Program-made: the position numbers and the translations under genes | Source of the DNA: Candidatus Enterococcus ferrettii | GTDB lineage: Bacteria > Bacillota > Bacilli > Lactobacillales > Enterococcaceae | Reading direction: 5' to 3' | Length of the DNA: 64,000 bases | Assembly (NCBI RefSeq): GCF_017377655.1 | Contig: NZ_JAFREL010000045.1 | Location: 30,587-94,586 of the forward strand | Notes under the pieces: model-generated | What the model saw: the letters and a program-made list of their open reading frames with translations, nothing else | Database searches by the model: none | What the model was told of the DNA's origin: nothing | Shown: positions 43,375-57,424 of the stretch, piece after piece | Layout: every line of letters starts with the position of its first letter | Position numbering within the stretch: position 1 is the stretch's first letter

Positions 43375-44781
43375 ATGGTAGTTGGAGATTTTGCTATTGA
43401 ATTAGACACAGTCGTTATCGGTTCCGGGCCTGGCGGATATGTTGCCGCTATCCGGGCCGCTGAAATGGGACAAACAGTTGCGATTATTGAACGGGAATTT
43501 ATTGGGGGTGTCTGCCTGAATGTTGGGTGTATCCCTTCGAAAGCTTTGATTTCAGCAGGACATCACTATCAGGAAGCATTAGATTCTTCAACCTTTGGTG
43601 TGACTGCCGAAAACGTTAAGTTAGATTTTGAAAAGACTCAAGAGTGGAAAGAAAACGGCGTGGTTAACAAATTAACTTCTGGCGTAAAATTCCTATTGAA
43701 GAAACACAAAGTTGAAATTATTGAAGGAGAAGCCTTCTTTGTGGATGATAAAACGTTGCGCGTGATCCACCCAGATTCTGCGCAAACTTATTCATTTAAC
43801 AATGCGATTATCGCGACTGGATCACGACCAATCGAAATCCCAGGCTTCAAATTTGGTGGACGAGTATTAGATTCAACTGGCGGTTTATCACTAAAAGAAG
43901 TACCTAAAAAATTCGTCATCATTGGTGGCGGCGTCATAGGTGCAGAGCTAGGTGCAGCGTATGCTAACTTAGGCTCTGAAGTAACGATTATTGAAGGAAC
44001 ACCTCAGATTTTACCTACTTATGAAAAAGATATGGTAAAAATTGTTGAAGAAGACTTTAAGAAAAAAAGTGTTAAAATTGTTACCTCAGCAATGGCTCGT
44101 GAAGCCGTTGACAATGGTGATAGTGTAACCGTCCGTTATGAAGTAGACGGCAAGGAAGAAACTGTCGATGCAGATTACGTAATGGTAACTGTTGGCCGTC
44201 GACCTAACACAAATGATATGGGATTAGAACAAGCTGGTGTTGAAATGAACGAACGCGGACTAATTCAAGTGGACAAACAAGGGCGTACCAATATTCCAAA
44301 TATTTACGCGATCGGGGATATTGTACCTGGAGCAGCGCTAGCTCACAAAGCTAGCTATGAAGCAAAAATTGCTGCTGAGGCCATTTCTGGTAAGAAAGTA
44401 GCTGTAGACTATAAAGCAATGCCAGCTGTTGCCTTTACTGATCCAGAGTTAGCTTCTGTTGGTATGACTATTAAGGAAGCTAAAGAAGCAGGACTTGAAG
44501 CAAAAGCTTTCAAATTCCCATTCTCTGGGAACGGCCGTGCGTTGTCCTTAGCTAAAACAGAAGGATTTATCCGTTTAGTGACTACTGTTGAAGACAATGT
44601 AATTATCGGTGCACAAATTGCTGGCGTGGGTGCCAGCGACATGGTTTCCGAATTAGCATTGGCGATTGAATCAGGGATGAATGCAGAAGATATTGCATTA
44701 ACTATTCACCCACACCCATCGTTAGGGGAAATTGTGATGGATGCTTCTGAGTTAGCTCTTGGAATGCCAATCCACATTTAA
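43375..44781 (+). CDS. pdhD: dihydrolipoamide dehydrogenase (E3)
   Basis: FAD/NAD+ disulfide oxidoreductase that reoxidises the lipoyl groups. FAD motif [19 protein letters not shown], redox disulfide [16 protein letters not shown] motif [18 protein letters not shown] and the C-terminal His-Glu pair in HPHPSLGE are present. 468 residues. ATG 43375 follows the pdhC stop by 7 nt. Last gene of the pdh operon. Confidence 0.97.
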
Positions 44782-44800
44782 TATAAAATAGACACTCTAG

Positions 44801-44836
44801 CAGACAATACATGATTGTGTATTGTCTGTTTTTTTG
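44801..44836 (+). terminator. terminator of the pdh operon
   Basis: CAGACAATACA (44801-44811), loop TGATTG, and TGTATTGTCTG (44818-44828), followed by seven T. Confidence 0.92.
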
Positions 44837-44874
44837 CGTTTTAAGAAAGAAAATACTGAAAGAAAGCCTGTCTA

Positions 44875-45041
44875 TGATTAACGAAAAGCAAAAATATGAT
44901 GTTTATGAATATTTAATTTTGAATGATCAATTTATCTATTACCATAAGGGAATTCAAAGAGAGATGTTAATAACTAGAAGGGGGCTTTTCGGCGAATTAA
45001 TTTTTAAAAAAGTTGCTTTTTTTAGGTTTGTAATTAGATAG
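44875..45041 (+). CDS. small ORF of doubtful status between pdhD and the recombinase region
   Basis: A 55-codon frame beginning MINEKQKYDVYEYLIL, mainly charged and aromatic, with a basic end. The upstream sequence (GAAAGAAAG) is a weak ribosome site. It may be a gene remnant. The frame stays open upstream to 44811 inside the pdh terminator. Nothing else recognisable lies between it and the left inverted repeat at 45267. Confidence 0.25.
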
Positions 45042-45266
45042 CAGGAGAGAATCGGATACTAAAAAAAGTCCAGTTACTCCAATATATACATATGTCAAAT
45101 TAAATTGATCACTTTTGGGTTTTTGATGATTTACAAATGAATATAACGAAAAAACAATGATAAAGTTGTGGGGTAATTATATAATAAGTTTTTGAGTAAT
45201 AGAGGTTGCTTATCTAACTTATGGTACTTTGAAATAGAAAATCTTTTACTGATAAAAGGATATGGA

Positions 45267-45292
45267 TTTCTTAGTTTTAGGAAGACTAGGAA
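45267..45292 (+). repeat. left 26-bp inverted repeat of the candidate invertible segment
   Basis: This 26-nt sequence (core TTAGTTTTAGGAAGACTAGG) is the exact reverse complement of 46881-46906. No target-site duplication flanks the pair. Confidence 0.92.
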
Positions 45293-45345
45293 GAAGGAGG
45301 TTTTGAAAAGACGCTTGTTTATTTTTTCTCTTGTTCACGTTTTTT

Positions 45346-45374
45346 ATTATAGATTACGAAGAAAAAATACGCAA
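45346..45374 (-). promoter_or_regulatory. outward-facing sigma-A promoter inside the invertible segment
   Basis: On the minus strand, TTGCGT (45374-45369), a 17-bp spacer and a perfect TATAAT (45351-45346). It points left, out through the left repeat, toward no coding target as drawn. Inversion would make it point right into the operon at 47021 with a leader of roughly 185 nt. Confidence 0.7.
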
Positions 45375-45475
45375 TATCTTTTTAAAAAATAATCAAAATA
45401 AATTTTTGACTCTTAGGAAACGCAAAAAACTGATTTAGGAAGCTGATAGAACTTCGAAAACCAACAAAAATCTAT

Positions 45476-45497
45476 TTACCGTCAAAATTACCGTCGA
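45476..45497 (+). repeat. tandem ACCGTC repeats upstream of the recombinase gene
   Basis: Two TTACCGTC-like units 12 nt apart (ACCGTC at 45478 and 45490). A similar pair lies downstream at 46821-46836 in the same orientation; possible arm-type recombinase sites. Confidence 0.5.
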
Positions 45498-45518
45498 GTT
45501 TTAGGAAAGGAGAAAAAC

Positions 45519-46625
45519 ATGCGCAGAGGCGAAAATATTTATCGCAGAAAAGATAAAAGATGGGAAGGGAGGTACCCAATTGGAAAAAAAGCCAATGGTA
45601 AAACAAAATATGCTTCAGTTTATGGTAAAACTCTTAAAGCAGTTCGTGAGAAGCTTTACCCATTAAAGTTGAAATATCAACTAATTCAGGAAGTTCAGGG
45701 TAATTCTGCTATTTCTTTTCAGGAATGGGGAGATATTTGGCTAAATGAAACAAATGTAGGCGTTAAGCAATCGACATATGCGAACTATAAACATAAATTG
45801 AATTACTATGTACTTTCAGAAATTGGACAATATGGTTTAAATGAGTTGAATGAAGAACTTGCAGAGAATTTACTTCAATCACTTAAAGACCGAAAGTTAA
45901 AGGCTTCAACAATTCAGTCTATCTTTCGCATTGTGAACCAATGTTTAAATCTAGCTATCCGTAAAAAACTTATTAAAGAAAATCCATTTACATCCGTTAA
46001 ACTTCCAAAAGTAATTAAAGAAAACAATCAGTCTCTCACGTTACAAGAGCAGCATCAACTAGAAAAAGCAGCTGTAACTGAAAAAGATGGAAATGGTCTA
46101 CCTATACTTTTAGCTCTTCATGCTGGCTTACGAATTGGTGAAATTTCAGCCCTAAGCTGGAAGGATATTGATTTTCAAAACAATCTGATTCATATCAAGG
46201 CGACTTATCAAAGAACTCTGAGTGTATTGGGGGAATGTAAAACAACATTGATTTATACAGACTCTAAGACTCAATCTGCGACCCGAACTATCCCAATGAG
46301 CGATACAATAAAGCAGATATTACTTCAACAAAAAGCCCAATCTTCAAGTGCTTTCGTTGCTTCAAATAAGCAAAAACCAATTGAACCACGCCTTTTGACC
46401 TATCGTTTCCATAGGATGCGAATGAAGGCGGGGTTGGATAAAATCCATTTTCATCAGCTTCGTCACACATTTGCAACTCGTTGTCTTGAAAGCAATGGGG
46501 ATGTTGTTAGTGTGAGTGCCTTGATGGGTCACAGTTCTACACAGATGACTTTGGATACATACGCGAGCTCATTGATAGAGCAGCGGATTCAAGTTATTGC
46601 AAAAATGGAAAAAAGAATCAGCTAA
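45519..46625 (+). CDS. tyrosine recombinase/integrase
   Basis: Site-specific recombinase of the phage/ICE integrase family, 368 residues. An N-terminal arm-binding (AP2-like) domain (1-45: RKDKRWEGRYPIGKKANGKTKY) and a SAM-like core-binding domain (about 62-160) precede the catalytic domain. Catalytic residues: Arg in LHAGLRIGEIS, HQLRHTFATR (His-x-x-Arg), His in LMGHSS and nucleophile Tyr in TLDTYAS. AGGAAAGGAG precedes the ATG. No excisionase, phage or conjugation genes adjoin it; instead it is bracketed by perfect inverted repeats, which suits a DNA invertase better than an integrative element. Confidence 0.93.
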   Translation: MRRGENIYRRKDKRWEGRYPIGKKANGKTKYASVYGKTLKAVREKLYPLKLKYQLIQEVQGNSAISFQEWGDIWLNETNVGVKQSTYANYKHKLNYYVLSEIGQYGLNELNEELAENLLQSLKDRKLKASTIQSIFRIVNQCLNLAIRKKLIKENPFTSVKLPKVIKENNQSLTLQEQHQLEKAAVTEKDGNGLPILLALHAGLRIGEISALSWKDIDFQNNLIHIKATYQRTLSVLGECKTTLIYTDSKTQSATRTIPMSDTIKQILLQQKAQSSSAFVASNKQKPIEPRLLTYRFHRMRMKAGLDKIHFHQLRHTFATRCLESNGDVVSVSALMGHSSTQMTLDTYASSLIEQRIQVIAKMEKRIS

Positions 46626-46674
46626 AACGTTTTCAAAAAGATTTGAAACACGTCATAGTGGGTCTTTTTTTATT

Positions 46675-46703
46675 TTTTAGAAAGAAAGCGCTTACTGTAT
46701 AGT
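46675..46703 (+). promoter_or_regulatory. weak promoter-like sequence with cre-like site
   Basis: TATAGT (46698-46703) with a poor -35 (TTTTAG, 46675-46680). AGAAAGCGCTTACT (46683-46696) between them resembles a CcpA cre site. A rightward transcript would meet the terminator at 46828. Confidence 0.35.
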
Positions 46704-46820
46704 GTGCGTTGAAAAATTAAAACTTATTAAGTTTTTCGTGTCATAAATCTATTTACTAATATTTTCCCGGATAAAATGACATGATTTAACCGATTTTAAA
46801 AATAAAAAATAAACTTTTAA

Positions 46821-46836
46821 ACCGTCAGTTACCGTC
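46821..46836 (+). repeat. second ACCGTC repeat pair near the right end
   Basis: ACCGTC at 46821 and 46831, 10 nt apart, in the same orientation as the upstream pair. Confidence 0.5.
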
Positions 46837-46853
46837 AAATGGTAGCTTTTTTT
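46828..46853 (+). terminator. terminator just inside the right inverted repeat
   Basis: GTTACC (46828-46833) pairs with GGTAGC (46841-46846) around a 7-nt loop, followed by seven T. It would insulate the downstream operon from the recombinase transcript in the present orientation. Confidence 0.65.
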
Positions 46854-46880
46854 ATTGCCTAATCAATCTCTCTAATAATT

Positions 46881-46906
46881 TTCCTAGTCTTCCTAAAACT
46901 AAGAAA
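46881..46906 (+). repeat. right 26-bp inverted repeat of the candidate invertible segment
   Basis: Exact reverse complement of 45267-45292. The stretch 46907-47020 between it and the first operon gene holds no convincing sigma-A promoter. Confidence 0.92.
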
Positions 46907-47020
46907 GAAAATCAATTCTTTCCTTGTTAAAAGTATATCACGGACCTAGGAAAAGGGGTGAGATTAGTAGGAAATTATTAGAAAGTTACAGATCTTTAAA
47001 GAAACAAAGGAGGAGCCTGC

Positions 47021-47935
47021 ATGTTCGGATTAGGCAAGCAGAAAAGAGACACCTATCATGAGCCGCAACAAGATGATTATTTTTATGATGAGTATGATAA
47101 CGAAGGGTATGAAGGAGAATATGGATATGATTCATATCCAGAAGATAGCTATGAACGTTCGATGGAAACCTACATTGATTATGAACCAAATGAACGGGAA
47201 AGGCAGAGAAGAAGAGCGAATATTGACGGGCGCCACGACCGCCGATATGACAATGAAGAGCAAATAAAATCCTCCCGAGGCATTGAAGATGATTCGACAG
47301 TACAGTCGGACTCAATGGTCAACCAAGAGATTGAACGTTTAGAGGAAACCGTAGCCCAGCTGAAATATCAACTAGAAACTAAACATACTGAAATGACGAA
47401 CATGGCTTCTAGTTTAACGGAAAAGGAACAAAAAATACATGACCAGCAAATGGATAAAGAAAAGGCAGTCCAAGAGCTGCAAAAACAGGTCAAACAACAA
47501 ATGCTAGATCAAAAAAAAGATTATGAGAGACAGTTAGATCAAATAAGTAATCAAAACAAGCAATTAACGACTCAACTTCAAAATAATCAAAAAGATCAAT
47601 CGGAAACGTTGATGCAGGCGCATTTACAAATTGAAGAGTTGAAAAAAACTCAAATAGACAACGAAGAAATGAAAGCTGAATTGGCAACTATTTTGATTGA
47701 AACAAAAAAACAAGAACGTGCCATACTGGAACGTGCAGAATTTGAAGCTAAAGGAATTCGAAGTCAGGCCGAACAAGAAGCCCATCAAGTAATTCATGAT
47801 GCTTCTCTTGAGTTGCGCGTGATGAAGCAAGAAATAAAAAACTATCGGAAACGTCTACGATCTGTGCAAGAGGAGACTACACAATTCTTTGTGCGTTTAT
47901 TAGCTAACAGTGATGCACTGTTGGAAGATGAGTAG
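47021..47935 (+). CDS. cytoplasmic coiled-coil protein with acidic Tyr-rich N-terminus
   Basis: First gene of the surface-fibre operon, 304 residues, family not recognised. Residues 12-60 are acidic and tyrosine-rich (YFYDEYDNEGYEGEYGYDSY). From about 95 to 290 it is a long Gln/Glu/Lys coiled coil, its final part (ERAEFEAKGIRSQAEQEAHQ) recalling DivIVA-type tails. No signal or membrane segment. A strong AAAGGAGG site precedes the ATG. It could be a cytoplasmic scaffold that positions the secretion proteins; that is inference from context. Confidence 0.75.
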   Translation: MFGLGKQKRDTYHEPQQDDYFYDEYDNEGYEGEYGYDSYPEDSYERSMETYIDYEPNERERQRRRANIDGRHDRRYDNEEQIKSSRGIEDDSTVQSDSMVNQEIERLEETVAQLKYQLETKHTEMTNMASSLTEKEQKIHDQQMDKEKAVQELQKQVKQQMLDQKKDYERQLDQISNQNKQLTTQLQNNQKDQSETLMQAHLQIEELKKTQIDNEEMKAELATILIETKKQERAILERAEFEAKGIRSQAEQEAHQVIHDASLELRVMKQEIKNYRKRLRSVQEETTQFFVRLLANSDALLEDE

Positions 47936-47950
47936 TGGAAAGGGTGAGCA

Positions 47951-49090
47951 TTGGTAATGCAATTCGAGAGTCAAGTGACCCTATATCCTGCACCAGCTCC
48001 TATGATGCAGGATGAGTTAATTTCGCTGCCGATTTTAGCAGAAATCGAAAAGACATGTGAATATCTTTTTGCACCTCATGGGACATTGAGTAACGAACAG
48101 AGGGAAAAAATAAATCAACATTTTCAACAGTTATTTAAGTTTATGGACAGCAGCTATCATGTTGAGCTTTTAGTAAGTGCAGATGGATTTAATTGGTCAG
48201 ATTTTTGGCAGGCGATTCATCAGTTTTTTCCACAATTCGCTTGGACAAAGATTCAGACAGAACCACCTAAATACGGGAAACAAATGTTTCGCATTGATTT
48301 TATCCCTTTGCTTTATCAAGAAACTGGTTTTCCGTTTGCTGTTCGTCTAGAAGAAAGCTTGAAGCAACAATTCACACTTCTAGAATCAGATACGGTTAAG
48401 CACGCAGAACAATTGATAAGAGATTTAGCAGAACAGCAGATAAAGGAAACAACAAGCGAAAATTCGGTTGTTGTTGAACAGGCTGAAACAGAAGAAATAA
48501 GAATGGCGATCAATCCTATTCAAGAAGAAAATGTACGACAGGAAAGTCAAAGTAAGGCTCGTTTAAGGGCAGTCAATCAGAAACTTGAGATGGTCATCGA
48601 AAAGTTAGAGCTGTCTATGCTACACAGTGGTATTCAATATTTCGACCAGGATTACACAAAAGAAGAAAGTGATTGGGATAAACAATTAACGATTAGTTTA
48701 CGTGAGTACACCCATTTGCTGCAGAAGGCCCGTTTTCTTGAACAAATGTGGAATTTGAACGGTGAGTTAATTAATAAGACTGAAAAGATGACTGTTACTG
48801 GAAATAAGCTGATCTATGAAAGAGATCAGGTCAAACAAATTAAAGCAAATCTTTCTACCCGAGACATTCATTTTGTTTTGTATGAATGCCAAGTAATTGA
48901 ATCACGAGCGAAAGTTCATGCTAGGCCTTGGTTTAGAAAACCATATGTCAAATTGATGAAAATGGACTATGACAATCTTTTGAGTAAAGCTGCTTACTTT
49001 GATCTTTTACAGGGTGAAAGCTCAATTTTAGAAAAATTTGTAAGAGAGCATAAAGATATATCTGCTAGCAAAGCTCAGGAGGTAGGCTGA
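47951..49090 (+). CDS. cytoplasmic protein of unknown function in the fibre operon
   Basis: A 379-residue soluble protein with no family I recognise. The N-terminal 160 residues look globular (ending FRIDFIPLLYQETGFPFAVRL); a helical, partly coiled region follows (about 160-290), then a Lys/Arg-rich helical end. The start is TTG 47951 (AAAGGG 7 nt upstream) or ATG 47957. It lies 15 nt after the coiled-coil gene and before a signal peptidase, so a role in assembly is likely but unproven. Confidence 0.7.
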   Translation: MVMQFESQVTLYPAPAPMMQDELISLPILAEIEKTCEYLFAPHGTLSNEQREKINQHFQQLFKFMDSSYHVELLVSADGFNWSDFWQAIHQFFPQFAWTKIQTEPPKYGKQMFRIDFIPLLYQETGFPFAVRLEESLKQQFTLLESDTVKHAEQLIRDLAEQQIKETTSENSVVVEQAETEEIRMAINPIQEENVRQESQSKARLRAVNQKLEMVIEKLELSMLHSGIQYFDQDYTKEESDWDKQLTISLREYTHLLQKARFLEQMWNLNGELINKTEKMTVTGNKLIYERDQVKQIKANLSTRDIHFVLYECQVIESRAKVHARPWFRKPYVKLMKMDYDNLLSKAAYFDLLQGESSILEKFVREHKDISASKAQEVG

Positions 49091-49144: not shown

Positions 49145-49600
49145 TTGTTAGTTATTGGCTACGTATTTTTTTTCAGTTTATTTCGTGCTTATAACCATTT
49201 GTATCCTAAATACTCTGTTAATGGAGAATCCATGAATCCAACATTTTTGGAGCAGGAATTGGTTCAGGTGAAGGCACATCATAAGCCGAAGCGTTTTGAT
49301 GTGGTGGTTCTTCATCCTCCTAATGATCCTGATGCATTATACCTAAAAAGAGTTGTTGGATTACCAGGAGAGAAAATTGATTTTGCGAATGGACAATTAT
49401 TTATTAACGAAGAATTAATAGCTGATAAATTTTCGCATGAAACGGAGCGATTTGATTGGGACGATAGATATGATCAGCCAATCCCTCCAAAGTATTATTT
49501 TGTTCTCGGAGATAATCGGGCCATTTCGAAAGATAGCCGAATTTTTGGTTTGGTTTCAGAAAAACAAATTTTAGGAATTGTCGAAGAGGGGAACAAATAA
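49145..49600 (+). CDS. signal peptidase I (Ser/Lys type), start uncertain
   Basis: Type I signal peptidase: nucleophile Ser in VNGESMNPTF, general-base Lys in ALYLKRVVGLPGE, box E GDNRAISKDSR. One N-terminal membrane segment. The start is a problem: the frame is open from 49091, just after the previous stop and next to a perfect AGGAGG (49077-49082), but contains no ATG, GTG or TTG until TTG 49145, which lacks a ribosome site and shortens the membrane segment. One A fewer in the A6 run at 49093-49098 would give a CTG-initiated MRKKRSNFFHKN. Either a rare start is used or the gene is damaged. Confidence 0.8.
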   Translation: MLVIGYVFFFSLFRAYNHLYPKYSVNGESMNPTFLEQELVQVKAHHKPKRFDVVVLHPPNDPDALYLKRVVGLPGEKIDFANGQLFINEELIADKFSHETERFDWDDRYDQPIPPKYYFVLGDNRAISKDSRIFGLVSEKQILGIVEEGNK

Positions 49601-49602
49601 GC

Positions 49603-49908
49603 ATGAAGACATTACAAGAAAAAATTGAATGGTACTCCTTTTGGTACTGGGTATACTGGCTCTTCTCTTTGGTTGTTCTTTTGGGAGTTGTTGTATTAGG
49701 AATCTTCTTCTACTTTACCGATTTTCAAGAGGTTGTAACGGTCAGCCAATTATTTTTACTACTGTTATTGATGATATTAGCTATTTATTTACGAATGACA
49801 GCTTTGCATTATCACAGTGTTCTATTGAAACTTCAACAAGCGGCAGCGAGACCAAGAAAACCGAGAGAACGACCTCAACCACGTCCACAAGAAAGGCGGA
49901 CCCCTTAA
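49603..49908 (+). CDS. small two-TM membrane protein with Arg/Pro-rich tail
   Basis: A 101-residue protein with an aromatic N-terminus (EKIEWYSFWYWVYWLF), two membrane segments (about 16-38 and 46-66) and a basic Pro-rich tail (ARPRKPRERPQPRPQERR). No family recognised. Both ends are probably cytoplasmic. Its TAA overlaps the next ATG. The tail resembles that of the SipW-type peptidase in the same operon, suggesting a shared partner. Confidence 0.75.
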   Translation: MKTLQEKIEWYSFWYWVYWLFSLVVLLGVVVLGIFFYFTDFQEVVTVSQLFLLLLLMILAIYLRMTALHYHSVLLKLQQAAARPRKPRERPQPRPQERRTP

Positions 49909-51008
49909 TGAAGGGTAAGATCTTACTTGGTAGTTTAGTTACTGGCATTTTTATCATTATTGGTTATCAAACACAAATAGAGCAGATCGTATCAGCTGAA
50001 ACGAAGGAATTATTTTCGTCTCAACAGGGGTCCGTATCTAGTATGGCAACTAGTAACACCGCTGCCAGTACAACTAGTGGAAAATCAATAGCATCAACTA
50101 GTTCTTCAGTAGATTTTTCTACGGAAGAAATTAAGGAAAGTGAGTCGGTAGAATGGAAACCGACTGCTTCAATAACTACATCGAAGGAATCAGAAAAGGC
50201 AACAGAAGAGTCACTTGCAGTTGCGTCACAGGTAGTTCCAGAAGCAGGTGACAAAGATCAGATATCCGTAGTACCTGCAACGAAGGTAGAAGAGAATTAC
50301 CAGATTTCGGTGACAAAAAATCAAACGACCGAAGAATTCATCCAAACAATTGGAAAAGATGCTCAGGCGATTGCCTGGAACGAAGACCTATATGCCTCAG
50401 TGATGATCGCACAGGCAATTTTAGAAACCGGATCTGGAAACAGTCAATTGGCTCGTCCGCCGTATCATAATTTGTTTGGGATTAAAGGCAGTTATCAAGG
50501 AAAGCAAGTGTCCTTTAGTACCCAGGAGGATGAAGGCAGCGGACAGCTCTATACGATCCATTCAGCTTTTCGCCAGTATCCCAGCTATAAAGACTCATTG
50601 GAAGATTATGCTGCCCTTTTGAAAAAGGGACTTTCAGGAAATGTTGGTTTTTATCAAGGAACATGGAAGTCAAATGCCGCAACCTTCCAAGAAGCAGCGA
50701 AAGCCTTAACTGGGAAATACGCAACGGATACTGCCTATGATAAGAAATTGATTGCCTTGATCGAAGCGTATAATTTAGCCTCCTATGATCAGGATCTAGC
50801 AACAAATGATGAAGTGGAACAAGAAAAAGCAGCTACTGATCAGGTCAAACTAGATGCTAGTGTAGAAGAAAAACAGGTGCCTGAGTATTTCAGTGAGAGC
50901 AGTGAACAAAAACTTCGGGTCAATCAAACAAAGCAACCGGTAATTGTTGTTCCGCCTGCCGCTCAACGGCCAGCAAAGCAACTGACAGGCAATCGAATTG
51001 TTCAATGA
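49908..51008 (+). CDS. secreted/anchored GH73 glucosaminidase
   Basis: Peptidoglycan N-acetylglucosaminidase of the LytG/FlgJ type. An N-terminal hydrophobic segment (5-20, possibly cleaved after SA30) is followed by a Ser/Thr-rich stalk (35-105) and the GH73 domain (about 135-300) with catalytic Glu173 in AQAILETGSGNS and YHNLFGIKGSYQG. A Gln/Pro tail follows. ATG 49908 overlaps the previous stop; longer in-frame openings are out of phase with the membrane gene and rejected. Its likely job is to open the cell wall for fibre passage. Confidence 0.88.
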   Translation: MKGKILLGSLVTGIFIIIGYQTQIEQIVSAETKELFSSQQGSVSSMATSNTAASTTSGKSIASTSSSVDFSTEEIKESESVEWKPTASITTSKESEKATEESLAVASQVVPEAGDKDQISVVPATKVEENYQISVTKNQTTEEFIQTIGKDAQAIAWNEDLYASVMIAQAILETGSGNSQLARPPYHNLFGIKGSYQGKQVSFSTQEDEGSGQLYTIHSAFRQYPSYKDSLEDYAALLKKGLSGNVGFYQGTWKSNAATFQEAAKALTGKYATDTAYDKKLIALIEAYNLASYDQDLATNDEVEQEKAATDQVKLDASVEEKQVPEYFSESSEQKLRVNQTKQPVIVVPPAAQRPAKQLTGNRIVQ

Positions 51009-51021
51009 AAGAAGGGGAGAT

Positions 51022-51972
51022 ATGTCGAAACAACGTGAATATCGAAATCATGACTATGATTTTGACGAACCACTCTATCGCGAACGAGCCCCTTCCAATC
51101 GTCGACCACCTAGAAGGGGGGGCTATCAAGAGGACTATGACGACAGAAGACCATATCCACCTCAAAGACCAGCTAATCGGAATCGTGAAGCGGAAGAACA
51201 ACGGCGAATAGCGCAATCTCAATACGATCCTTATCCAGCGCGAGGTGTACCAGAACGTTATGGGAATCCACGGCCGGCTAATTACGGTTATGAACGGCAG
51301 CGGACACCACCGCCAAGGGCGCGACCTCAACGGCCAGCACCTGCTCAACAAGGGGGGCAACCTTTACAGGAAGCAAAAAAGTCTACAAATCGCAAGATAT
51401 TCCTGTTCGTGTATAACTTGTTCTTTTACACCTTAACGATCGGAATTCTGTTGAGCTCTTTGATGTTTGCTTTTAGTGAAAAATCCGATGCTGCTATCTT
51501 TGGCTATCGCTTCTACCAAGTCTTGACCAACTCAATGGCGCCACAACCAGATTCGTCTTCAAAAGGATTCTATGCGGGAGACATCGTACTAGTGAAAATG
51601 GTCGACGGCAGTCAGGTGAAAGAAGGCGACATCGTTACCTTCCAAGTTGGAGATGGGGATCGTTACCTAACCCACAGAATGGTGGAGCGGCTAGATGAAC
51701 TAAATGGGGAAAAAGGCGACTATATTGTTACTAAAGGGGATGCCAACAACAGTAAGGACCCACCGATTTCGGCAGACCGAGTCTACGGAAAAGTAACCTT
51801 TGTGATTCCGAAAATGGGTGGTGTCCTGAACTTTGTTCAGGAAAATCTGTGGTTGTGTTTAGTGTGTGTCTTATCAACATTCGGGTTCTTCCTAGTTCTG
51901 AAAGCTTATTTTCTACAGCCGGAACCAGCGAGAAAACCAATGAAACAAAAGAATTATCCAAGAGGGGTATAA
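51022..51972 (+). CDS. sipW: SipW-type signal peptidase with long basic N-terminal extension
   Basis: ER-type signal peptidase that processes TasA/BsaA-class precursors. Residues 1-124 form a disordered cytoplasmic extension rich in Arg, Tyr and Pro (for example NRRPPRRGGYQEDYDDRRPY). A membrane segment (126-150), catalytic Ser171 in LTNSMAP, His218 in YLTHRMV replacing Lys, Asp in TKGDANNSKD, and a second membrane segment (273-297) follow. Typical SipW is about 190 residues without the extension. ATG 51022 follows AAGGGGAG. It lies directly before the main TasA-like gene. Confidence 0.92.
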   Translation: MSKQREYRNHDYDFDEPLYRERAPSNRRPPRRGGYQEDYDDRRPYPPQRPANRNREAEEQRRIAQSQYDPYPARGVPERYGNPRPANYGYERQRTPPPRARPQRPAPAQQGGQPLQEAKKSTNRKIFLFVYNLFFYTLTIGILLSSLMFAFSEKSDAAIFGYRFYQVLTNSMAPQPDSSSKGFYAGDIVLVKMVDGSQVKEGDIVTFQVGDGDRYLTHRMVERLDELNGEKGDYIVTKGDANNSKDPPISADRVYGKVTFVIPKMGGVLNFVQENLWLCLVCVLSTFGFFLVLKAYFLQPEPARKPMKQKNYPRGV

Positions 51973-52032: not shown

Positions 52033-53349
52033 ATGAAGAAGAATAGTAAGAAGAAAAAGCTGATGGCAGCAGCAGCAGCTCTAGCGTTAATCGCAGCCAT
52101 CTCCGGGACGTTTGCCTGGATTACTGCGCAGGATCAACGGATTAACCGGGCAGAATCAGCAGCGGTTAATGACAACAGTGTAACGGTGAAAGAAACTTGG
52201 GAACCAAAACCATTGGTACCAGGAACAGAAGCAACCAAAGAAGTAGCTGTATCGAATACAGGTACGGCGAGTGTATTTGTTCGTGTATCTTACGAAGAAG
52301 TGTTGAAGCATTTGGATAAATTAGGTGCTGAAAAGTATGATGCAAGTTCAGTTACGGGAGCGAAATATACTTACGTGGCGAACGATTCAGGTTTGAACAA
52401 ACATATGCCGATCAACTTTAATGGGGATCAAACCTACAAAGATGGTTTTATTATTGTACCTGCGAGTCAGATTACCGGCTTAGCAACGCCAGCAGACGAC
52501 AACGTGAAGCTATTGGTTAAGGGTGGAAAAACAGTCGACGCAGTTACTGGCGTTGAAAAAATCAGTTATGAATCTAAACTAATGCATGAATACTTTACCC
52601 ATGCAGATAACTCTGGGAAAAATCCTGGCGATGTCGGCTATGATGCAAGCAAAAACAAGTATCAAGCAATGAGCTTTGATATCGCAGTGAACAATGAAAA
52701 CAGTAGCCTTGATGCAAAAGACTGGAACTTTACCTTAAGTAATGTGAAATACGGTTACTATGAAAATGGCTATAAGAATACAGCTGTTAACTGGGCAAAA
52801 TCTTCTCTACCAGATGAAGATGGTGCAGCGACAGGTCGCGCATTGCTTGGTACTGACGGTGTTCGTTACAGCGTAGATTATGACTATACTTTCGGTGGAC
52901 TAGGTTATACCAATGCGGCTGGTCTTCCAGCGGTAACCCCAGCAACAGTAGCAGATCAAATCCCAACTGCAACCGGCAATAAAGGCGTTCAAGCAGATAC
53001 AAATGGTTTAGGCAAGAATAATATCCGTATTGGGTACAGCGCGGATATGACAAATACGACTGCTTTAGACAGTAATAAATGGGTTTATAACGCAGATGAT
53101 GGCTGGTTCTATTACACAGTACCAGTGAAATCAGGCGAAACAACGAAGAATTTATTAGAAAAACTAGTCTTTGAAAGCGCAATGGGTACTGAATACACCA
53201 ATGCTTCGTATGATTTGATTGTGAAAATGGAAGCTGTCCAAGCAAATGCGGATGCACTAATTGACACAGCAGGTTGGAACTTAGGTGAAGGTTCAGCACC
53301 AACGGGTGATACTTTACTAATTGTGAACAAACTTAAAGCAGGCATTTAA
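52033..53349 (+). CDS. TasA/BsaA-like SipW-dependent fibre protein 1
   Basis: Likely the major surface-fibre subunit, 438 residues. A basic N-terminus (KKNSKKKK) and hydrophobic stretch end in the SipW-class cleavage region SGTFAWITAQDQRINRAE. The mature part is beta-rich with repeated Tyr-Gly and Asn/Asp motifs and the TasA-like opening EVAVSNTGTASVFVRVSY. No LPXTG. A strong AGGAGG and a codon choice that looks optimised suggest high expression. C. perfringens BsaA and B. subtilis TasA are the closest known types; assignment is by signal peptide and context. Confidence 0.88.
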   Translation: MKKNSKKKKLMAAAAALALIAAISGTFAWITAQDQRINRAESAAVNDNSVTVKETWEPKPLVPGTEATKEVAVSNTGTASVFVRVSYEEVLKHLDKLGAEKYDASSVTGAKYTYVANDSGLNKHMPINFNGDQTYKDGFIIVPASQITGLATPADDNVKLLVKGGKTVDAVTGVEKISYESKLMHEYFTHADNSGKNPGDVGYDASKNKYQAMSFDIAVNNENSSLDAKDWNFTLSNVKYGYYENGYKNTAVNWAKSSLPDEDGAATGRALLGTDGVRYSVDYDYTFGGLGYTNAAGLPAVTPATVADQIPTATGNKGVQADTNGLGKNNIRIGYSADMTNTTALDSNKWVYNADDGWFYYTVPVKSGETTKNLLEKLVFESAMGTEYTNASYDLIVKMEAVQANADALIDTAGWNLGEGSAPTGDTLLIVNKLKAGI

Positions 53350-53363
53350 TTGAAAAGGACACC

Positions 53364-54125
53364 ATGAAAGGAAGGGAGAAGTGGCAGATGTTGAGAAAAC
53401 TTACAACAGTAGTAAGCAGCATCCTGTGTTTCTGTTTCTTCTTTTGCGGTACGTACTCAGTACAAGCAGCAAAAGCACTTCCTCCCGGCATGGTGATCGG
53501 GGATTCTGAAGGAATGTATGCCACATCTGAGGGAGAGTATTACATTGATTTAGTGGATATTCTCCCAGGAGATGTGTACAAGAAAGAAATAACTATTCGT
53601 AGTTTGGACTTAGAAGCCCCCTTTTCTTTAGGCATGCTGGTTGAAGAAATAGACTCAACCGGATCGTTAGATTGGAAAAACCACATAACCATGACCTTAA
53701 CTTTGGATGGCGAACAAATCTACCAAGGTTCGCTATTAGGTGATAGCGGTAAAGATTGGAGTAAAGTCCCATTGGAATTAGGAGTATGTAAGTATGGAAC
53801 AGATAAACTGATGATCGCTGAATTCGCGGTAGATTCCCAATTAACAAATGAAAATTTGCGGGAAAAAAGCGCGTTGAACTTCTACTGGACATTTGTAGGG
53901 ACAAAGGATCAGCCGATCGAGCCAACTAAACCCTCTGTACCTGAAGAACCTACGCCTTCTATTGAAAAACAAACTTTACCGAAAACAAAACCAAGTGTTC
54001 AGTCAAACGGAAAGCGGTTGCCCCAAACGGGTGAACACATTGTCTACAAATTTCTTTCGGGATTATTATTAGTTCTAATCGCCTTGTTCTTATGGAAAAA
54101 ACGCCGGGAGGAGGAGGAAGTATGA
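53364..54125 (+). CDS. LPXTG cell-wall anchored protein
   Basis: A 253-residue sortase substrate. An ordinary Sec signal peptide ends near SVQA; the mature domain (about 36-185) is beta-rich. A Pro-rich spacer (PIEPTKPSVPEEPTPS) leads to LPQTGEH at 219-225, a hydrophobic helix and a charged KKRREEEE tail. Start is ATG 53364 or ATG 53388 (AAGGGAG 9 nt upstream). In context it probably fixes the fibre to peptidoglycan, as TapA or minor pilins do in other systems. No sortase gene lies in the window. Confidence 0.9.
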   Translation: MKGREKWQMLRKLTTVVSSILCFCFFFCGTYSVQAAKALPPGMVIGDSEGMYATSEGEYYIDLVDILPGDVYKKEITIRSLDLEAPFSLGMLVEEIDSTGSLDWKNHITMTLTLDGEQIYQGSLLGDSGKDWSKVPLELGVCKYGTDKLMIAEFAVDSQLTNENLREKSALNFYWTFVGTKDQPIEPTKPSVPEEPTPSIEKQTLPKTKPSVQSNGKRLPQTGEHIVYKFLSGLLLVLIALFLWKKRREEEEV

Positions 54126-54967
54126 GTCAACGTGAAAAACTTCGCCATTTACTGCGAGTGTTTTACAAAAGCAAAGCATTCTTCGCCTTCTTCTCTCTTT
54201 TATTGAGTCTATTATTGGTAATGGGTAGCACTTATGCTTGGATTACTTCCAATGATGAACGAGTAAATCGGACCGAGGCGAATAAAAGAAAACTTTCGGC
54301 AAAGATCGATGGTGATCTCGATATGGTTCGTCATTTTGCTCCTGGAACGAAGGAATCAAAAGAAATTCGTGTCACAAATAATGGAGAAGTTCCAGCAGTT
54401 GTACGACTATCATTAACTGAATCATTTGTCAGTTTTGAAACGGATGTAAAGGATAATCATAGTATCGGCAACGGGAATGGCGATCTGACCTCCTATGGAA
54501 CTCCGATTCTTCCGGCAATAAATTTAAATGATACTAGTACTTGGATCATAGGTAAGACGTATGAAATCAGCGCAGATAAGCATTATAAAGCAAACTATGT
54601 ACTGAAGGACTTACCTTATGTTTATCAAGGAACACGTCCAGAACCGATGCCCGCAATTCAACTAGATTTTACCAGCGGAAAGGTTTTCGATAGCAATACG
54701 CAGCCATCTGGTACAGACTCTGCCTACTGGTATTACGAAGACGGCTTCTTTTATTATTCAGAAGTCCTTAATTCTGGAGAAAGTTCAACCAATTTATTGA
54801 CTAGCGTTACTTTAAATTCCGCCTATTTAAATCGGTATAAAGGAGCGTTTTATAAATTGGTTCCTGAGATGGATGCGCATGATATTACCAAGGAATTGTT
54901 TTCTGATTGGGGAATTAATTCTACTGATTTTGCCTATGGCATGTACCAAAATCAATTATATAAATAA
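54122..54967 (+). CDS. TasA/BsaA-like SipW-dependent protein 2
   Basis: 281 residues. The basic, hydrophobic N-terminus ends GSTYAWITSNDERVNRTE, almost the same cleavage region as protein 1, so SipW should process it. The mature part starts with EIRVTNNGEVPAVVRLSL, the TasA-type beta opening, and has the shared YWYYEDGFFYYSEVLNSGE segment. ATG 54122 follows GGAGGAGG and overlaps the LPXTG stop by 4 nt. Likely a minor or tip subunit. Confidence 0.88.
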   Translation: MSQREKLRHLLRVFYKSKAFFAFFSLLLSLLLVMGSTYAWITSNDERVNRTEANKRKLSAKIDGDLDMVRHFAPGTKESKEIRVTNNGEVPAVVRLSLTESFVSFETDVKDNHSIGNGNGDLTSYGTPILPAINLNDTSTWIIGKTYEISADKHYKANYVLKDLPYVYQGTRPEPMPAIQLDFTSGKVFDSNTQPSGTDSAYWYYEDGFFYYSEVLNSGESSTNLLTSVTLNSAYLNRYKGAFYKLVPEMDAHDITKELFSDWGINSTDFAYGMYQNQLYK

Positions 54968-54978
54968 GGAGGAGTAAG

Positions 54979-55623
54979 ATGAAACGGAAAAAAACATTGA
55001 CTCGAAAACTGAGTTATTTACTTGTTTCAATCGTTCTCGTCCTCCTTTTGCTTGGTGGCAGTTACTTTGTGTATGCTGCAATGACAGCTAAAGATCGTCG
55101 AACAACTGATTTTCAAATCGGGCAAGTAGAAACACAGCTTGATGAAGACTTTGATGAGACAATTACAGAAATTCATAAAGATCAAAGTAGAATAAAGAAA
55201 GTAACGGTCAAAAACACTGGAACCATCAAACAATTTATTCGGGTAATGGTATTGCCGGAAACACAGGTGGATGTTGCGGATGATCCTCAAAGCAGACAAG
55301 CACTACCAATTGCTGTTGGAACAGATTTAATATTGGAACATTTAAATACAGCGGACTGGAAATATGGCGGTGATGGCTATTACTACTATACAAAAGAAGC
55401 TGTGAAACCATTGAAAAATACAGAACCTCTGTTTAGTTCAATTAAACTCGATAGCAACTTGAGTCCAATTTATCATCAGTCATCTTTTACTATTTCAGTT
55501 AAGGTAGAAGCTGTGAATTGTGCAGAATATGTATATCGTGATGCTTGGTGGCAAGGAGCAGTTCCAACTGATCCAACACTAAAAGCAATTGATGATAACT
55601 TGAAGGCTCTTGTAGAAAATTAA
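54979..55623 (+). CDS. TasA/BsaA-like SipW-dependent protein 3
   Basis: 214 residues, the shortest of the three. The signal segment ends GSYFVYAAMTAKDRRTTDF; the mature part has KKVTVKNTGTIKQFIRVMV and GGDGYYYYTKEAVKPL, matching the other two. It may be a minor subunit or a cap. AAGGAGGAG precedes the ATG. Last gene of the first unit, before a terminator. Confidence 0.85.
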   Translation: MKRKKTLTRKLSYLLVSIVLVLLLLGGSYFVYAAMTAKDRRTTDFQIGQVETQLDEDFDETITEIHKDQSRIKKVTVKNTGTIKQFIRVMVLPETQVDVADDPQSRQALPIAVGTDLILEHLNTADWKYGGDGYYYYTKEAVKPLKNTEPLFSSIKLDSNLSPIYHQSSFTISVKVEAVNCAEYVYRDAWWQGAVPTDPTLKAIDDNLKALVEN

Positions 55624-55952: not shown

Positions 55953-56705
55953 ATGATGAATCTTGGTTATGCACGAGGATCTCAATTTAATCGACAGCTA
56001 GACATGCTAGAGGATTATCCAATAGAAGAACTTTTTTCTGATGGAAATCAGGAAATTGAGGAGATTGACGCTCCTGCTAGCGAATTTCAGGCATTGTTAA
56101 ATTTCGCTCAATCAGGTGATCACTTAGTTATCACATCCTGGGAAGTAATCTCTCGAGATTATCGACAAATCTTAGCATGCCTAGATCAATTAGAAGCGTT
56201 GGAGCTGACTTTAGATGTATTGACTCTTCCGCACTTAACAGTTGAAGAATGGCGACAAATATTTCGTTGGTCTATACATAACGATCGCTTGCTGCATCCA
56301 ACCTTATTTAAGTTGGGGAAAGAAAGGGAACGTAGCAAGGCTGCCTATTCTCTCTTTAGCAAGGAGCCTGAAGCACGAAAACTATACCGCGAAATCATCT
56401 GGTTGTTAGTGGAAAAACAAACGATACGTCAGGTCGCACGTCAAAAACGAGTACCGCTGGAGACTGTCTATCGCATCCAGCAAAACCTGAAACAAATTCA
56501 ATTGGCCATAATACTGGTTCTTTGTTTTTTACTCGCTATATTCAGCATTAAGCTAGCTGAATCTTATTTTGATCAATTGTGGATACAAATAGTCATTTGT
56601 ATCGCAGTAACATTGTTTATTATTTGGAATGTGCTGTTGGATACAGAGGATGAAGAATCCACAGAAAAAGGAAAGAAAATTATAGAAAACAAGAAGAGAA
56701 GGTGA
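55953..56705 (+). CDS. membrane-anchored degenerate serine-recombinase-like protein
   Basis: 250 residues. Residues 1-105 resemble a resolvase/invertase catalytic domain: LGYARGSQFNRQLDML aligns with YARVS..Q..QLDAL, keeping the nucleophile Ser, but the later Arg-x-x-Arg pair reads EVISRDYRQ, losing the first Arg. A resolvase-type helix-turn-helix (about 148-180, QTIRQVARQKRVPLETVYRI) follows, then two membrane helices (about 188-206, 211-230) and a charged tail. Membrane tethering argues against recombination; a DNA-binding sensor is more likely. Two ATGs (55953, 55956). Confidence 0.7.
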   Translation: MMNLGYARGSQFNRQLDMLEDYPIEELFSDGNQEIEEIDAPASEFQALLNFAQSGDHLVITSWEVISRDYRQILACLDQLEALELTLDVLTLPHLTVEEWRQIFRWSIHNDRLLHPTLFKLGKERERSKAAYSLFSKEPEARKLYREIIWLLVEKQTIRQVARQKRVPLETVYRIQQNLKQIQLAIILVLCFLLAIFSIKLAESYFDQLWIQIVICIAVTLFIIWNVLLDTEDEESTEKGKKIIENKKRR

Positions 56706-56710
56706 TTCTA

Positions 56711-57424
56711 ATGCAACATGCATTGATTTTGACAAAGAATACAGTATCAGAAGAAGGAATTATTGGGAAATTAAGACGGTTAAATTATGAAACATTGTGT
56801 TCAACAGATTTACTATACCATTTACAAAAATATGTATCCTCTTCATTTTTCACTTATTTTCATTGGGTGTTTTTAAGCGAAACGTTGTGTAACGAAGAAG
56901 TTGATCTTATCCTGAATCAGTTGAAAAATTACCCAGTTTTTTTAGTACGAATAGTAGAAAAGACAATGGATGATGAAGAAATCGCTTATTGGGAAGAAAA
57001 AGGAATGTCTGGCAGCTTAAAGAAAGACGCTACCTTTGAAGAAATCCGGGAAAAACTGCATGAACTGCAAAAAGAGCTCCGTGATAAGCAAATAATTAAT
57101 AATAAGATCGTAGTTTTAGGAAATGCTGAGAAGGATGGATTAAAGCCGCTCACATCTAGACTTTCCAAGACAGAAAAGAAACTTTTTGAGAACCTGTTAA
57201 ATGCATACTCGAAAGGTATCGTTCTTTCACGAGTTGAATTATGTGAACGATTATGGCCGGAAGGATCAACACCTTCTAACATGAGTCAACTCTCTTGCTT
57301 AATAAATAAACTGAAACGAAAGCTCGAAGAAGGTGGCATTACTGGCGAAACAATTATCACTTTATGGGGGAGAGGCTACAAGTTAGGCAGTGAGCTTTCT
57401 GAATTTTGGATTCAGCATGCTTAA
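56711..57424 (+). CDS. atypical OmpR/PhoB-type regulator without phospho-acceptor
   Basis: 237 residues. The C-terminal winged helix is clear (about 145-232: LSKTEKKLFENLL, VLSRVELCERLWPEG, CLINKLKRKLEE, TLWGRGYKL). The N-terminal 120 residues have a receiver-like alternation but no Asp after the third strand (HWVFLSETL), and no histidine kinase adjoins it, so phosphorylation is unlikely. ATG 56711 follows GAAGG at 8 nt. It lies beside the fibre operon and is the best candidate for its direct transcription factor. Confidence 0.8.
   Translation: MQHALILTKNTVSEEGIIGKLRRLNYETLCSTDLLYHLQKYVSSSFFTYFHWVFLSETLCNEEVDLILNQLKNYPVFLVRIVEKTMDDEEIAYWEEKGMSGSLKKDATFEEIREKLHELQKELRDKQIINNKIVVLGNAEKDGLKPLTSRLSKTEKKLFENLLNAYSKGIVLSRVELCERLWPEGSTPSNMSQLSCLINKLKRKLEEGGITGETIITLWGRGYKLGSELSEFWIQHA

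Follow-up and report, generated by a model that had tools for sequence, protein, structure and literature searches.

A probable self-encoded invertible promoter cassette upstream of a SipW/BsaA surface-fibre operon, a unit present in about two dozen copies in an enterococcal genome

Does a recombinase gene framed by inverted repeats, lying directly upstream of a surface-fibre operon, belong to a segment that turns over and switches that operon? The question is raised by positions 45267-46906 of the DNA analyzed here, a stretch of 64,000 nucleotides (the window) to which all coordinates refer. The sequence and its relatives indicate that this segment is very probably a self-contained invertible promoter cassette that switches the SipW/BsaA operon behind it ON and OFF. 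The features of the cassette and its right flank are as follows.

45267-45292, plus strand: left inverted-repeat arm, with the core CTTAGTTT-TAGGA-AGACTAGG
45346-45351, minus strand: -10 element TATAAT of the predicted outward promoter, Pout; read from the sequence and conserved in paralogues
45369-45374, minus strand: -35 element TTGCGT of Pout, with a 17-bp spacer to the -10; read from the sequence
45479-45495, plus strand: CCGTC pair upstream of the recombinase gene (CCGTC at 45479 and 45491), candidate arm-type binding sites
45519-46625, plus strand: tyrosine recombinase, 368 aa, Pfam Phage_integrase (PF00589)
46822-46836, plus strand: second CCGTC pair, near the right arm (CCGTC at 46822 and 46832)
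46827-46857, plus strand: terminator-like hairpin and T-run, in a similar place in paralogues
46881-46906, minus strand: right inverted-repeat arm, perfect reverse complement of the left arm
46932-46940, minus strand: extended -10 TGATATACT of a putative promoter, Pleft, just outside the right arm and pointing into the cassette; sites of this kind are enriched in the family

A preliminary description of the locus had reported a tyrosine recombinase gene bracketed by a perfect 26-bp inverted repeat, and both parts of this statement were confirmed: the two arms are reverse complements at 26/26 positions, and the protein matched the Phage_integrase model at 93.6 bits (cut-off, 27.1). The domain is Phage_integrase and not the serine recombinase domain of the Hin family. 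The repeat is not attributable to chance, as a scan of the window for perfect inverted repeats of at least 16 bp with arms no more than 5 kb apart returned no pair besides the cassette arms. Pout lies 53 bp inside the left arm and points leftward. Its elements, TTGCGT and TATAAT separated by 17 bp on the minus strand, are present as described, but "near-consensus" was too strong a term for them, since the -35 matches the consensus at only 3/6 positions; Pout is absent from the list of a simple consensus scan. It is credible because its position is conserved across the cassette family, and in close paralogues the -35 is a conserved ATATTGCGTATT. The terminator previously placed at 46828-46853 was found as a hairpin at 46827-46847 followed by a T-run, and it would stop rightward read-through from the recombinase gene. 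The earlier view that phage and integrative-element genes are absent also stood. The recombinase is the sole ORF of at least 150 aa between the arms, and direct repeats in 44500-48000 included none longer than 26 nt, those longer than 20 nt being no more than 83% alike. An integrative or conjugative element or a prophage was therefore rejected: the arms are inverted, and neither direct att repeats nor mobility cargo was found.

The proposed mechanism follows from this layout. The recombinase encoded in the segment would cross over within the 26-bp arms and flip it. In the orientation seen, Pout would fire leftward, away from the operon (OFF); in the inverted orientation, it would fire rightward into the SipW/BsaA operon (ON) through a leader of about 187 nt on our recount, close to the 185 nt first estimated. 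The operon starts 114 bp past the right arm, and the genes behind the cassette are listed here.

47021-47935, plus strand: operon gene 1 (MFGLGKQKR...), no Pfam or NCBIfam match
47951-49090, plus strand: operon gene 2, 379 aa, no family match
49145-49600, plus strand: signal peptidase I (TIGR02227, PF10502)
49603-49908, plus strand: small ORF, 101 aa, N-terminal half hydrophobic, no match
49908-51008, plus strand: glucosaminidase-domain protein (PF01832)
50998-51972, plus strand: SipW-type signal peptidase (TIGR02228 above cut-off; SipW model NF046067 below its cut-off)
52033-53349, plus strand: BsaA-family SipW-dependent matrix protein (TIGR04090, 64.9 bits; cut-off, 60)
53364-54125, plus strand: LPXTG-anchored protein (PF00746, TIGR01167)
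54092-54967, plus strand: BsaA-family SipW-dependent matrix protein (TIGR04090, 61.9 bits; cut-off, 60)
54979-55623, plus strand: third, weaker BsaA-like protein (TIGR04090, 33.7 bits, below cut-off)

With two TIGR04090 proteins above the cut-off and a SipW-type peptidase, the operon is predicted to encode a SipW-dependent fibre of the BsaA/TasA type. For the window copy, we infer that Pout would be the operon's promoter and that phase variation would result.

The preliminary description treated a single locus. Its architecture holds, but it overlooked the multiplicity of the unit: in the source assembly (5.40 Mb, 157 contigs), the recombinase has 38 matches at E≤1e-3, 26 of which reach E≤1e-80. 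Matches were found in 12/20 genomes of the genus at E≤1e-80 (source genome included), in 37/105 genomes of the family at E≤1e-70, and in 18/295 genomes drawn evenly from the order at E≤1e-60, 13 of these 18 within the family. In total, 156 loci were fetched, comprising 29 of the 38 source-genome matches, 80 stretches from the genus, and 47 others; these loci are not independent, since they include paralogues, several E. raffinosus strains, the window's own copy, and both copies from genome G091. Some genomes were fetched in part (G001, 1/6 matches; G015, 1/3; G006, 4/5; G011, 16/18), and other genera are represented by 34 stretches from 13 genomes. The source-genome and genus loci formed a first batch of 109, and the remaining 47 formed a second batch. 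A rightward ORF of at least 80 aa no more than 900 bp past the 3' end of the recombinase gene was present in 140/156 loci, and 126 of these first genes fall into five recurring kinds: the window-type protein (37), regulator-like (32), WxL-type (30), LPXTG/pilin-like (18), and a nine-member group, with 14 others. The name WxL was taken from the annotation of L170, "regulator" from the winged helix of the L205/L206 gene (PF00486 in the L206 member), and LPXTG and pilin from a reading of the sequences.

The anatomy of the window cassette recurs across these loci. A first-batch gate (inverted-repeat score of at least 14, arm1 210-262 bp before the recombinase start) was passed by 88/109 loci, 18 of them in the source genome. 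For ten of the 21 failures, the contig stops close to the recombinase gene, and the others have weaker or differently placed repeats or, at L036, another integrase. In 86/88 loci (exceptions, L018 and L112), the -10 of the highest-scoring leftward promoter falls 31-78 bp inside arm1; the mean score is 11.25, compared with 9.41 on the opposite strand and 9.46 in shuffled sequences, although taken individually only 55/88 outward promoters score at or beyond the top 5% of shuffles. In the second batch, a looser gate (195-330 bp) admitted 34/47 loci, of which 28 carry the promoter 20-110 bp inward of the arm. Rightward promoter scores between arm1 and the recombinase start were on average no higher than those of shuffles. 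Thus, a recombinase gene lies between inverted repeats and a predicted outward promoter lies inside one end, the layout expected of a Hin-like segment.

Tyrosine recombinases are established to cross over with a homologous overlap, which would produce arms with identical centres and divergent half-sites. In 107 cassettes, the left and right arms agree at 94-100% at seven central positions and at 70-81% at several half-site positions; identities were computed without scoring the core for identity, and since the cassettes were still selected for arm similarity, only the contrast between central and half-site positions counts. Arm sequences vary among loci, and the crossover cores are mostly locus specific, with some common to several loci within one genome. 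Recombination between loci is conceivable for L012, L013, and L015 of one genome because they share the core TTAAGTA.

The assembled copies are strongly biased in orientation, another point that the preliminary description overlooked. With OFF defined by the rightward ORF of at least 80 aa within 900 bp of the recombinase 3' end, 140 of the 156 loci are OFF, 2 are ON (L105 and L206), and 14 are unassignable, the last including loci cut by contig ends and, in other genera, stand-alone recombinases without inverted repeats. All 27 assessable loci of the source genome are OFF (L025 is cut; L036 is another integrase), and none of the ten megaplasmid loci from five E. raffinosus strains (L165-L169 and L185-L189) has the opposite orientation. 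The bias means either that the cassettes seldom invert in culture or that some factor keeps them OFF. Three source contigs (C4, C20, and C143) begin exactly at base 1 of an arm (chance expectation, about 0.003, with 54 arm ends assumed), which hints at mixed orientation in the sequenced culture; we gave this no weight because the C4 arm is also present in C1.

Inversion itself was seen in relatives. The locus L105 (E. pallens contig 9) was compared after being turned so that its operon reads right. Against L028, its operon side is collinear at 95.5% identity from the arm on, its left flank is collinear over 88 bp (81%), and its cassette lies on the opposite strand (87%) and ends at the arms. 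Against L102, the same inverted pattern was found at 84-87%, with 136 bp of left flank collinear at 76%. A second case comes from G091, which carries another genus label within the family and in which the first and last ~40 kb of a single large contig are one region (where the two ends were sampled, identity is 99.6% across 3 kb and 100% across 1.6 kb). Such repeated ends resemble those of an untrimmed circular contig; they could instead be a true 40-kb duplication, though both copies reach contig ends. The two copies, L205 and L206, carry the cassette in opposite orientations. Virtual inversion of L205 at the arms converted it into L206 with 2 mismatches in 8761 bp, versus 1090 without turning, and the crossover is placed inside the arm because both mismatches are arm asymmetries outside the core. 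As the L205 recombinase is 44% identical to that of L028, this pair is evidence for the family rather than for the window's copy. The segment thus appears in both orientations for two homologous cassettes, so the suggestion that related genomes be searched for the opposite orientation bore fruit; for the window's own cassette, we infer inversion from these relatives. Together with the recurring anatomy and breakpoints at the arms, they support the original proposal of a self-encoded invertible promoter found in its OFF state.

Four other explanations were weighed. The one that survives best, although we consider it improbable, is a two-way toggle in which the "OFF" orientation is itself productive and drives a leftward gene. 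Among the 136 cassettes with at least 1.2 kb of left-hand sequence, 38 encode, no more than 2.6 kb to the left, a leftward-reading protein of a single family (L018, L088, L149, L151, and 34 others, each facing away from the cassette), and none of the 136 has this family on the right. More than one match was found in L030, L103, L104, L115, and L116. Beside three E. pallens cassettes, the protein matched the ComK model PF06338 at 25.0 bits (cut-off, 22.3) and, below the cut-off, at 20.9 and 20.7 bits; hmmscan of four other members gave no PF06338 match at E≤1. Profile comparison (hhalign) of the left-gene family, its profile built from 32 of the 38 members, with a ComK set gave 96%, and the fold model of the ComK-like protein has a pLDDT of 86. 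Against the toggle, the other 98/136 cassettes have no such gene, and the ComK-like genes may have promoters of their own. The window's left flank has no ComK-like gene either: no leftward ORF of at least 60 aa was found between the left arm and an upstream lpdA-like ORF (43375-44781; named from its sequence) that reads toward the cassette. Elsewhere in the source genome, C124:54666-54998 matched the ComK model at 22.1 bits (22.6 with frame neighbours; cut-off, 22.3), on a contig without a recombinase match. In E. raffinosus L166 and L167, the cassette is separated by a transposase-like ORF from the ComK-like gene, which in strain CX012922 (L165) lies close to the cassette.

It is slightly less likely that the switch is decayed or silent, its recombinase inactive or unexpressed and the cassette frozen OFF. 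The 27/27 OFF copies of the source genome would fit, as would the average lack of a recognizable recombinase promoter between arm1 and the start codon. However, the ORF is intact, the arms are perfect over 26 bp, inverted relatives exist, and the full catalytic set R-K-HxxR-H-Y is present (R205, K250, H312-x-x-R315, H338, and Y348, roles assigned by analogy with the tyrosine recombinase family).

A still smaller likelihood attaches to a constitutive or regulated operon promoter that lies beyond the cassette ends, in which case inversion would be real but would not control the operon. Promoter scans are blind to unusual promoter types, which leaves some room for this explanation; however, the window's right flank has no rightward promoter-like site. 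A consensus scan listed none in 46907-47020, and a second scan over 46907-47016 (row L037), which required at least 5/6 matches in the -10, also listed none, in keeping with the earlier statement that the 114 nt before the operon hold no convincing promoter. That statement passed over the leftward extended -10 at 46932-46940. Across 112 cassettes, sites scoring at least 10 face the cassette from the right flank in 70, whereas in the control directions rightward sites are present in 10 on that same flank and in 24 on the left flank, and leftward sites in 12 on the left flank. Rightward right-flank sites are therefore the rarest of the four directions, and the conserved box of this flank faces the other way. 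On the two window scans and these family counts, an operon promoter in 46907-47016 was rejected.

Least probable of all is a selfish tyrosine-recombinase element with inverted-repeat ends that lies near surface operons by chance and whose promoter is incidental: its many copies per genome, its closest solved structures, which are integrases (6en0/6emy, "Int protein"), and the CCGTC pairs, which look like integrase arm-type sites and at which the recombinase may bind, favor it, but 140/156 copies have the rightward ORF within 900 bp, 126 of them in five kinds, the promoter position is fixed, and the matches in a phage set (1780 of 50,697 records) are all below 60% identity (the best 15 listed, no more than 33.1%), with none confirmed in viral contigs.

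Returning to the invertible promoter cassette, the right-flank sites suggest how its OFF bias might arise. Outside the right arm of the SipW-type loci lies a conserved box whose leftward reading gives either TTGATA-17-TATACT or the extended -10 TGNTATACT. An RNA element was considered for this box and dropped, as the other strand reads as a promoter-like site. Extended -10s face the cassette from the right flank in 33/112 cassettes versus 3, 3, and 3 in the control directions. In the OFF orientation, transcription from Pleft would be antisense to the recombinase gene; in the ON orientation, it would read into the 5' end of that gene, so that more recombinase would be made and the segment reset to OFF. 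A self-resetting switch is proposed on this basis, tentatively. The lack of a recombinase promoter signal between arm1 and the start, taken with Pleft, suggests that the enzyme is made mainly in the ON state, and self-resetting would explain why almost all assembled copies are OFF. The facing promoter would be a concrete reason for that bias. Self-resetting cannot be general, because a good Pleft-type site is missing or weak in 42/112 cassettes (L205/L206 has a weak one) and because 24/112 have, outside the left arm, an inward-facing promoter-like site from which the recombinase could be transcribed in the OFF state. Slightly more speculative is the extension to the whole genome, in which about two dozen cassettes would each act independently as a self-resetting "pulse" switch. 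Every recombinase would be kept silent by antisense transcription in the OFF state and turned on by the facing promoter once its cassette flips, so that a cell would display a given fibre or adhesin briefly; the mostly locus-specific cores would limit crossover between cassettes, and the OFF state would drive a ComK-like regulator at some loci. Were this so, surface structures would be sampled rarely and one at a time, with no master recombinase.

These features can be compared with known systems. Hin is a serine recombinase that works with an enhancer, and the outward promoter of its segment faces the target operon in one orientation. The cassette described here resembles the Hin system of flagellar phase variation in having the recombinase gene inside the segment and an outward promoter directed toward an operon in one orientation; it differs in its tyrosine recombinase, its many paralogous copies per genome, each mostly with its own site, and the promoter-like site that often faces it from outside. 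The cassette thus combines a Hin-like layout with a tyrosine recombinase, and it is one of about two dozen in the genome. The fim-, CwpV-, and flgB-type switches, among them those of UpaE and Clostridioides difficile, share with the cassette short inverted repeats, a tyrosine recombinase, and an invertible promoter or leader before surface genes; unlike here, their recombinase gene is not part of the segment but lies outside it or elsewhere. The Mpi inversions of Bacteroides fragilis control surface structures. One paper describes the Salmonella H segment, with the hin recombinase gene inside it, and Mpi, a single serine master recombinase acting on at least 13 regions with inversions across the genome (PMC5903667). 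The present loci are like those of Mpi in being many per genome and linked to surface structures and unlike them in having a recombinase per locus and mostly their own core. Pneumococcal PsrA is a tyrosine recombinase acting at 15-bp inverted repeats (PMC7096588); its hsdS inversions shuffle coding sequence, unlike a promoter cassette. The Clostridium perfringens BsaA-SipW matrix operon likewise encodes BsaA matrix proteins and is expressed heterogeneously, and a word search of that text found no "inversion" (PMC7395162).

Within the open-access literature, in which full texts were partly available, we found no promoter inversion at an enterococcal SipW/TasA, WxL, or LPXTG operon; subscription journals and preprints are poorly covered there, and a description may exist. 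Nor did this literature yield a description of a genome in which paralogous fibre, WxL, or LPXTG-type operons are preceded by about two dozen self-contained units, every one of which encodes a tyrosine recombinase and most of which have a crossover sequence of their own. Promoter inversion is already known; the multiunit arrangement with self-encoded tyrosine recombinases would be the new part. If the cassettes act as proposed, the surface repertoire of large enterococci would be extensive and for the most part concealed, appearing in assemblies almost exclusively in the OFF state.

Several further ORFs were observed around these loci. Downstream of the fibre genes of the window, 55953-56705 encodes a protein whose N terminus matches a resolvase domain (PF00239, 23.9 bits; cut-off, 23.3); it also has weak HTH matches and hydrophobic segments at the C terminus. 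It may be a regulator that is membrane bound and derived from a serine recombinase, and similar ORFs were found left of the cassettes L013 and L017. The ORF at 56702-57424 resembles the regulator-like proteins that recur beside cassettes. Related recombinases that stand alone, with no clear inverted repeat (L193, L202, L208, L209, L214, L218, and L224), are found in several genomes belonging to a different genus, next to a gene of about 503 aa that reads leftward.
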